The notes beneath the pieces are model-generated. The model had not been told where the DNA came from, did no database searches, and worked only from the letters and a program-made list of their open reading frames with translations. 13,986 nt of DNA, taken from NCBI GenBank assembly GCA_001412365.1, contig LKUE01000396.1, positions 1 through 13,986 on the forward strand, in the 5' to 3' direction. Every line of letters begins with the position of its first letter. Position 1 is the stretch's first letter. Source of the stretch: Desulfuromonas sp. SDB (GTDB taxonomy: Bacteria > SDB-A). Below are positions 8,537-9,046 of the stretch, one piece after another. The translations under genes and the position numbers were made by a program.

Positions 8537-9046
8537 TTACCCAATCTTAATATTGGTGAGTAGGAGAAAACTGGTCAACAAACCTAGTACGGCATAAGTT
8601 TCCACCATTGCCGCGTAAATTACTCCCTTCATCGCCTGATCAGGTCTCTTCGCCACCAAATGCACTCCCGCCAAGCAAACCTTTCCTTGAAAAATTGCGG
8701 AAATCAATCCGGTAAAAGCAATGGGGAGACAGGCTAAAAATACTTGTACTCCTTGAGCAACACTCATTGGAGCCAGTTTAGGCAAAACCAACAGGGCAAT
8801 AATCAGTCCGTAAAATCCTTGAGTTCCCGGCAGTACCACCAATAAAAATAAATTACCAAATTTTTCAGGATCTTCCCTGAGTACTGCTGGAGCAGCTTTA
8901 CCCGGGTAATTAATTCCAATGGAAGAGCCAATGCCAGCCAATGCTGCAGCTACCGCAGCTCCAGCGATGGCAATTCCCAAACCCCAGCCGCCGGATGATC
9001 CTGCAGCTTCGGTTTGCCCGATCAAGGAAAATAAAGCTTGAAACAT
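8537..9046 (-). CDS. atpK: V/A-type ATPase subunit K (rotor ring), Na+-type
   Basis: 169 residues with four membrane helices (about 21-45, 64-89, 97-122 and 141-165), i.e. two fused hairpins as in E. hirae NtpK (156 residues). The ring carries ions across the membrane. The ligands known for Na+ in NtpK (L61, T64, Q65, Q110, E139) are all matched: L-P-G-T-Q-G at 72-77 gives L72, T75, Q76; F-Q-G-K-V at 119-123 gives Q120; M-V-E-T-Y-A at 147-152 gives E149. The first hairpin has no ion-binding carboxylate, as in NtpK. The N-terminus is about 11 residues longer than NtpK. GGAGG at 9057-9061 precedes the ATG by ten bases; atpI ends 22 bases upstream. Subunit identity is very firm; Na+ specificity is inferred from the ligands. 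Confidence 0.96.

Follow-up and report, generated by a model that had tools for sequence, protein, structure and literature searches.

Which ion does the rotor of the ATPase encoded in this stretch of DNA carry? The window, by which we mean the whole stretch of 13,986 nucleotides analysed here (contig LKUE01000396.1 of Desulfuromonas sp. SDB), holds an operon with the order stalk-I-K-E-C-F-A-B-D, in which stator, rotor and catalytic subunits are complete (Table 1); this is the gene order of the E. hirae ntp operon (NtpFIKECGABD). Judged by its profile matches and gene order, the operon encodes a complete bacterial V/A-type ATPase, with the 105-aa stalk subunit matched weakly. A sequence-only reading had predicted a Na+-translocating enzyme from the Na+ ligands in rotor subunit K. 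Our analysis suggests that Na+ is indeed probably the main coupling ion of this V-ATPase, but that the residues of K carry less of the argument than the other ion pumps of the genome.

Table 1. Features of the ATPase operon in the window and codons of the predicted ion-pathway residues
Feature	Position	Strand	Basis
ntpK, rotor proteolipid K (c), 169 aa, four TM helices, one membrane carboxylate	8537..9046	-	ORF, homology, predicted model
K helix 2 ligands L72 (8831-8833), T75 (8822-8824), Q76 (8819-8821)	8819..8833	-	alignments, codons
K Y79, equivalent of NtpK Y68	8810..8812	-	MAFFT alignment, codons, PMC2359735
K helix 3 ligand Q120	8687..8689	-	alignments, codons
K helix 4 ligand E149, predicted ion-carrying carboxylate	8600..8602	-	alignments, codons
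ntpI, stator subunit I (a)	9069..11117	-	homology, alignment
Subunit I R590	9348-9350		position counted from alignment
Subunit I R650	9168-9170		position counted from alignment
Peripheral-stalk subunit (NtpF/G-type), 105 aa	11114..11431	-	PF16999 21.5 bits (below 28-bit cut-off) and operon position
ntpE, peripheral-stalk subunit E	7938..8531	-	profile match
ntpC, subunit C (d), socket joining rotor ring and shaft	6886..7941	-	profile match
ntpG, subunit F of central shaft	6566..6886	-	profile match
ntpA, catalytic subunit A	4774..6552	-	profile match, tree
ntpB, subunit B	3377..4777	-	profile match
ntpD, central-shaft subunit D	2760..3380	-	profile match

The best PDB match of K in a phmmer search is E. 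hirae NtpK (2bl2_A, E 1.4e-39), with residues 22-165 of the query aligned to 11-155 of the chain, interrupted once by a gap of one residue between helices 2 and 3. The NCBIfam model NF005124, 'V-type ATP synthase subunit K', scores it at 187.6 bits, where the cut-off is 127. By these similarities K is an NtpK-type V-ATPase proteolipid and the orthologue of E. hirae NtpK, and because the orthology is so clear, a chance match is not at issue. Mulkidjanian et al., 2008 (PMC2359735) identify the Na+ ligands of NtpK as L61, T64, Q65, Q110 and E139. Both the phmmer alignment and a separate MAFFT alignment place these at L72, T75, Q76, Q120 and E149 of K, without exception and just as the sequence-only reading had them, so that the predicted Na+ ligand set is complete. 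The MAFFT alignment, in which the NtpK sequence matches the PDB alignment across residues 11-155, gives an identity of 49%. It also pairs Y79 of K with Y68 of NtpK, described in that paper as the tyrosine that stabilises the ligand glutamate.

The predicted structure agrees with this assignment. An AlphaFold2 model built from 20 aligned K sequences (mean pLDDT 88, with a low-confidence N-terminal segment) has helices at residues 19-58, 60-90, 96-133 and 135-164. Its closest structure in Foldseek is 2bl2 (TMq 0.84, rmsd 1.2), and VIA superposes the two over 154 residues at 49% identity (Z 23.3, rmsd 1.9), with eukaryotic c subunits ranking below at a Z of about 20. The acidic residues of K are E13, E58, D59, E61, D136 and E149; in the model E58, D59, E61 and D136 lie at helix ends, between transmembrane helices 1-2 and 3-4, and no acidic residue but E149 sits midway along a membrane helix. 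The counterpart of E149 in the first hairpin is a glycine in both proteins (G74 in K, G63 in NtpK), and this hairpin holds no carboxylate. The earlier description of K as a four-helix protein with one carboxylate is thus borne out; a two-helix K, or one short of a ligand, was considered and rejected.

The likeness to the E. hirae V-type Na+-ATPase extends from the five ligands, the tyrosine and the four-helix fold to the stator, where R590 and R650 of subunit I correspond in the alignment to R573 and R629 of E. hirae. The first of these E. hirae arginines faces Glu139 and has been called crucial to Na+ translocation (PMC6199243). Relative to NtpK, K is longer by about 11 residues at the N terminus and shorter by one residue between helices 2 and 3. 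The window's catalytic A subunit shares its clade with candidate phyla and some spirochaetes and does not belong to the Enterococcus/Bacillota clade. The H+-coupled V/A-ATPase of Thermus thermophilus belongs to the same superfamily, and its stator arginine regions align. In contrast, its rotor subunit L is a two-helix protein that reads LPETLV where K reads LPGTQG, with a carboxylate in that hairpin and no Gln at the Q65 position. Aligning K with both NtpK and Thermus L therefore puts T75, Q76 and Q120 at ligand positions and finds Thermus L without the set. In the phmmer PDB alignments the helix-2 Gln is missing from the eukaryotic H+ c subunit as well as from Thermus L, and in human c the corresponding positions of helix 2 are occupied by non-polar residues.

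How much does a complete ligand set tell us about the ion? All five ligands are identical in 84 of 84 aligned NtpK-type sequences, a set picked by similarity that consists of the window K, NtpK and 82 relatives from candidate phyla, spirochaetes, clostridia, enterococci and others. Conservation reaches much further. The window's own phylum, with four genomes, was too small to provide a contrast, and we searched instead for K homologues across 149 Spirochaetota genomes, the phylum of a near relative; 87 of them had a match, and we compared 50 sequences (one of which repeats L003), the most distant about 28% identical to the window K. Forty-six of the 50 keep the five ligands; three of the others vary solely at the L61 position, whose part in the Na+ site is a backbone carbonyl, and the fourth varies there and has Ser for T64. 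These Spirochaetota proteins fall into roughly three bands of identity to the window K (about 70%, 45-54% and 28-38%), and some show motif variants, such as PEFYAIL in place of VETYAVL, with the Na+ ligands retained in nearly all.

Since the ligands are invariant across the NtpK-type family, their presence in K adds little beyond orthology to NtpK. On these alignments, the set splits NtpK-type rings from the H+ rings of Thermus and eukaryotes, not Na+ users from H+ users within the family. We infer its Na+ specificity from one measured member, E. hirae, so its predictive value would rest on few data points. The five-ligand criterion for Na+-type V-ATPases is thus better seen as a family marker, hardly variable among bacterial four-helix K proteins, than as a test of the individual enzyme. 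Mulkidjanian et al., 2008 (PMC2359735), likewise starting from complete ligand sets, predicted Na+ V-ATPases in clostridia, enterococci and other bacteria, and the window K would add a lineage to these. A Na+-translocating ATPase remains the best reading of the operon, but this family-fixed site says less for it than the sequence-only reading had supposed, and the stronger backing comes from elsewhere in the genome.

That genome, a 3.14-Mb assembly of 433 contigs that is 98.7% complete, was searched family by family. It contains a membrane pyrophosphatase gene (C14:4409-6532) with GNTTAA, the K+-dependent signature, and with a glutamate, E260, at the 6.53 position, where the Vigna H+-PPase has Gly; there is no Glu one turn later. 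A Glu at that position distinguishes Na+- from K+-dependent H+-PPases (PMC9408878). The protein exceeds the NCBIfam cut-off for sodium-translocating pyrophosphatase and also that of TIGR01104, which bears the name of the H+ type; as it passes both, the gate Glu carries the argument. By this rule, the enzyme is predicted to be a K+-dependent pyrophosphatase of the Na+-transporting type. On another contig (cluster at C48:7296-8369), the beta subunit of a Na+-pumping decarboxylase lies near a biotin carrier, an MmdA fragment, methylmalonyl-CoA epimerase-like and MeaB-like genes and, by eye, an OadG-like small protein, which fits a methylmalonyl-CoA decarboxylase acting as a putative Na+ pump. Its epimerase- and MeaB-like neighbours also suggest propionate/succinate metabolism. 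The Rnf genes C, D, G and E stand together in one operon (C433:5032-6108), where the stretch read stops after E, short of A and B. There is also one symporter of the SSF family, which includes many Na+ symporters.

The same family searches found no PF00361 protein (Proton_antipo_M, of complex I, Mrp and group 4 hydrogenase) in the genome, and neither a haem-copper oxidase (COX1) nor cytochrome bd. Taken together, this gene content suggests an anaerobe that both generates and consumes a Na+ gradient, and it supports Na+ coupling better than the K ligands do by themselves. A second rotary ATPase was considered and rejected, as the PF00137 search of this 98.7%-complete genome gave K as its only match; an F-type c subunit was not detected in it.

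Two other accounts of the coupling ion have to be weighed against this evidence. Even with a complete Na+ site, the enzyme might move both H+ and Na+ in the cell, in shares set by external Na+ and pH. According to a study of the F. nucleatum c-ring, the E. hirae ring is very weakly selective for H+, or almost non-selective, and works as a Na+ pump owing to the large excess of Na+ around it; M. acetivorans, whose site differs, couples to both ions (PMC3692424). Moreover, PMC2359735 states that Na+-ATPases can carry H+ when Na+ is absent. The Na+ site of K is as complete as the sequence-only reading held, but with a near non-selective E. hirae ring the step from a complete site to Na+ specificity does not follow. 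The Na+ reading of K then depends on the Na+ and pH of the habitat, and a low-Na+ habitat could favour H+ for such a ring. However, by the E. hirae argument, Na+ should dominate for a ring with this ligand set at millimolar Na+, and the other pumps in the genome look Na+-type, with oxidase and complex I-type H+ pumps not found in the family searches. We consider mixed use of the two ions unlikely.

It is very improbable, in our judgement, that the enzyme is H+-coupled and that the Na+ ligands are inherited, unused ancestry. A set that is near-invariant even at about 30% identity may persist for structural or ancestral reasons. Yet the invariance of several polar ligands within the membrane suggests selection for ion coordination, and the known H+ rings, eukaryotic c and Thermus L, are without these ligands.

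With Na+ as the preferred ion, we can present a rough proposal for how the enzyme may work. Each K would bind one ion within its four-helix bundle, through T75 and Q76 of helix 2, Q120 of helix 3, E149 of helix 4 and the backbone carbonyl of L72, and would exchange it at the stator near R590/R650. For an anaerobe with energy-coupling pumps that otherwise look Na+-type, the transported ion would most likely be Na+. The enzyme may be reversible, either synthesising ATP on Na+ exported by the methylmalonyl-CoA decarboxylase, the pyrophosphatase and Rnf, the ion of which would presumably also be Na+, or spending ATP to build the gradient. In liposomes, the E. hirae V-ATPase uses a Na+ gradient to make ATP, at a Na+/ATP ratio of 3.2 +/- 0.4 (PMC12018189). 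ATP synthesis is plausible here, as this is the only rotary ATPase found and several putative Na+ pumps stand alongside it. That the whole small candidate phylum runs on a Na+ economy, with an NtpK-type V-ATPase as its only ATP synthase, working in the synthesis direction and driven by Rnf, decarboxylase and Na+-pyrophosphatase, is a tentative extension about which we are more doubtful than confident.

The lineage is little studied, as had been supposed: the comparison set for the phylum comprises four genomes, all of one family. K is found in two of the three relatives of the same phylum, at 79-80% identity and with the ligands kept, and a match was not found in the third, a genome that is 94% complete. 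A 16S fragment is 87-88% identical over 380 bases to its own family, and the best value outside the phylum group, among the compared genomes, is 79% (WOR-3/TA06). In the A-subunit tree the window sequence groups with two Spirochaetota MAGs (98/95) on a long branch, and that group sits among WOR-3, TA06 and other candidate-phylum sequences. The V-ATPase itself is unremarkable within its known family; what is new here is the putative Na+ pyrophosphatase, decarboxylase and Rnf as support for Na+ coupling, and the value lies in how coherent the Na+ genes are as a set, in a phylum about which little is known. One Na+-type rotary ATPase together with several putative Na+ pumps gives a consistent and testable picture of energy conservation in a phylum that is almost unsampled.

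Two further genes of the window flank the operon. Divergent from it, at 11623-13230 on the plus strand, is a gene for a 535-aa protein with an M23 peptidase domain at residues 328-421 and an N-terminal part that has no Pfam match and looks propeller-like by eye. A 493-aa secreted-looking protein with no Pfam match is encoded at 1169-2650 on the minus strand, and its C-terminal segment resembles, by eye, a type IX secretion sorting domain.
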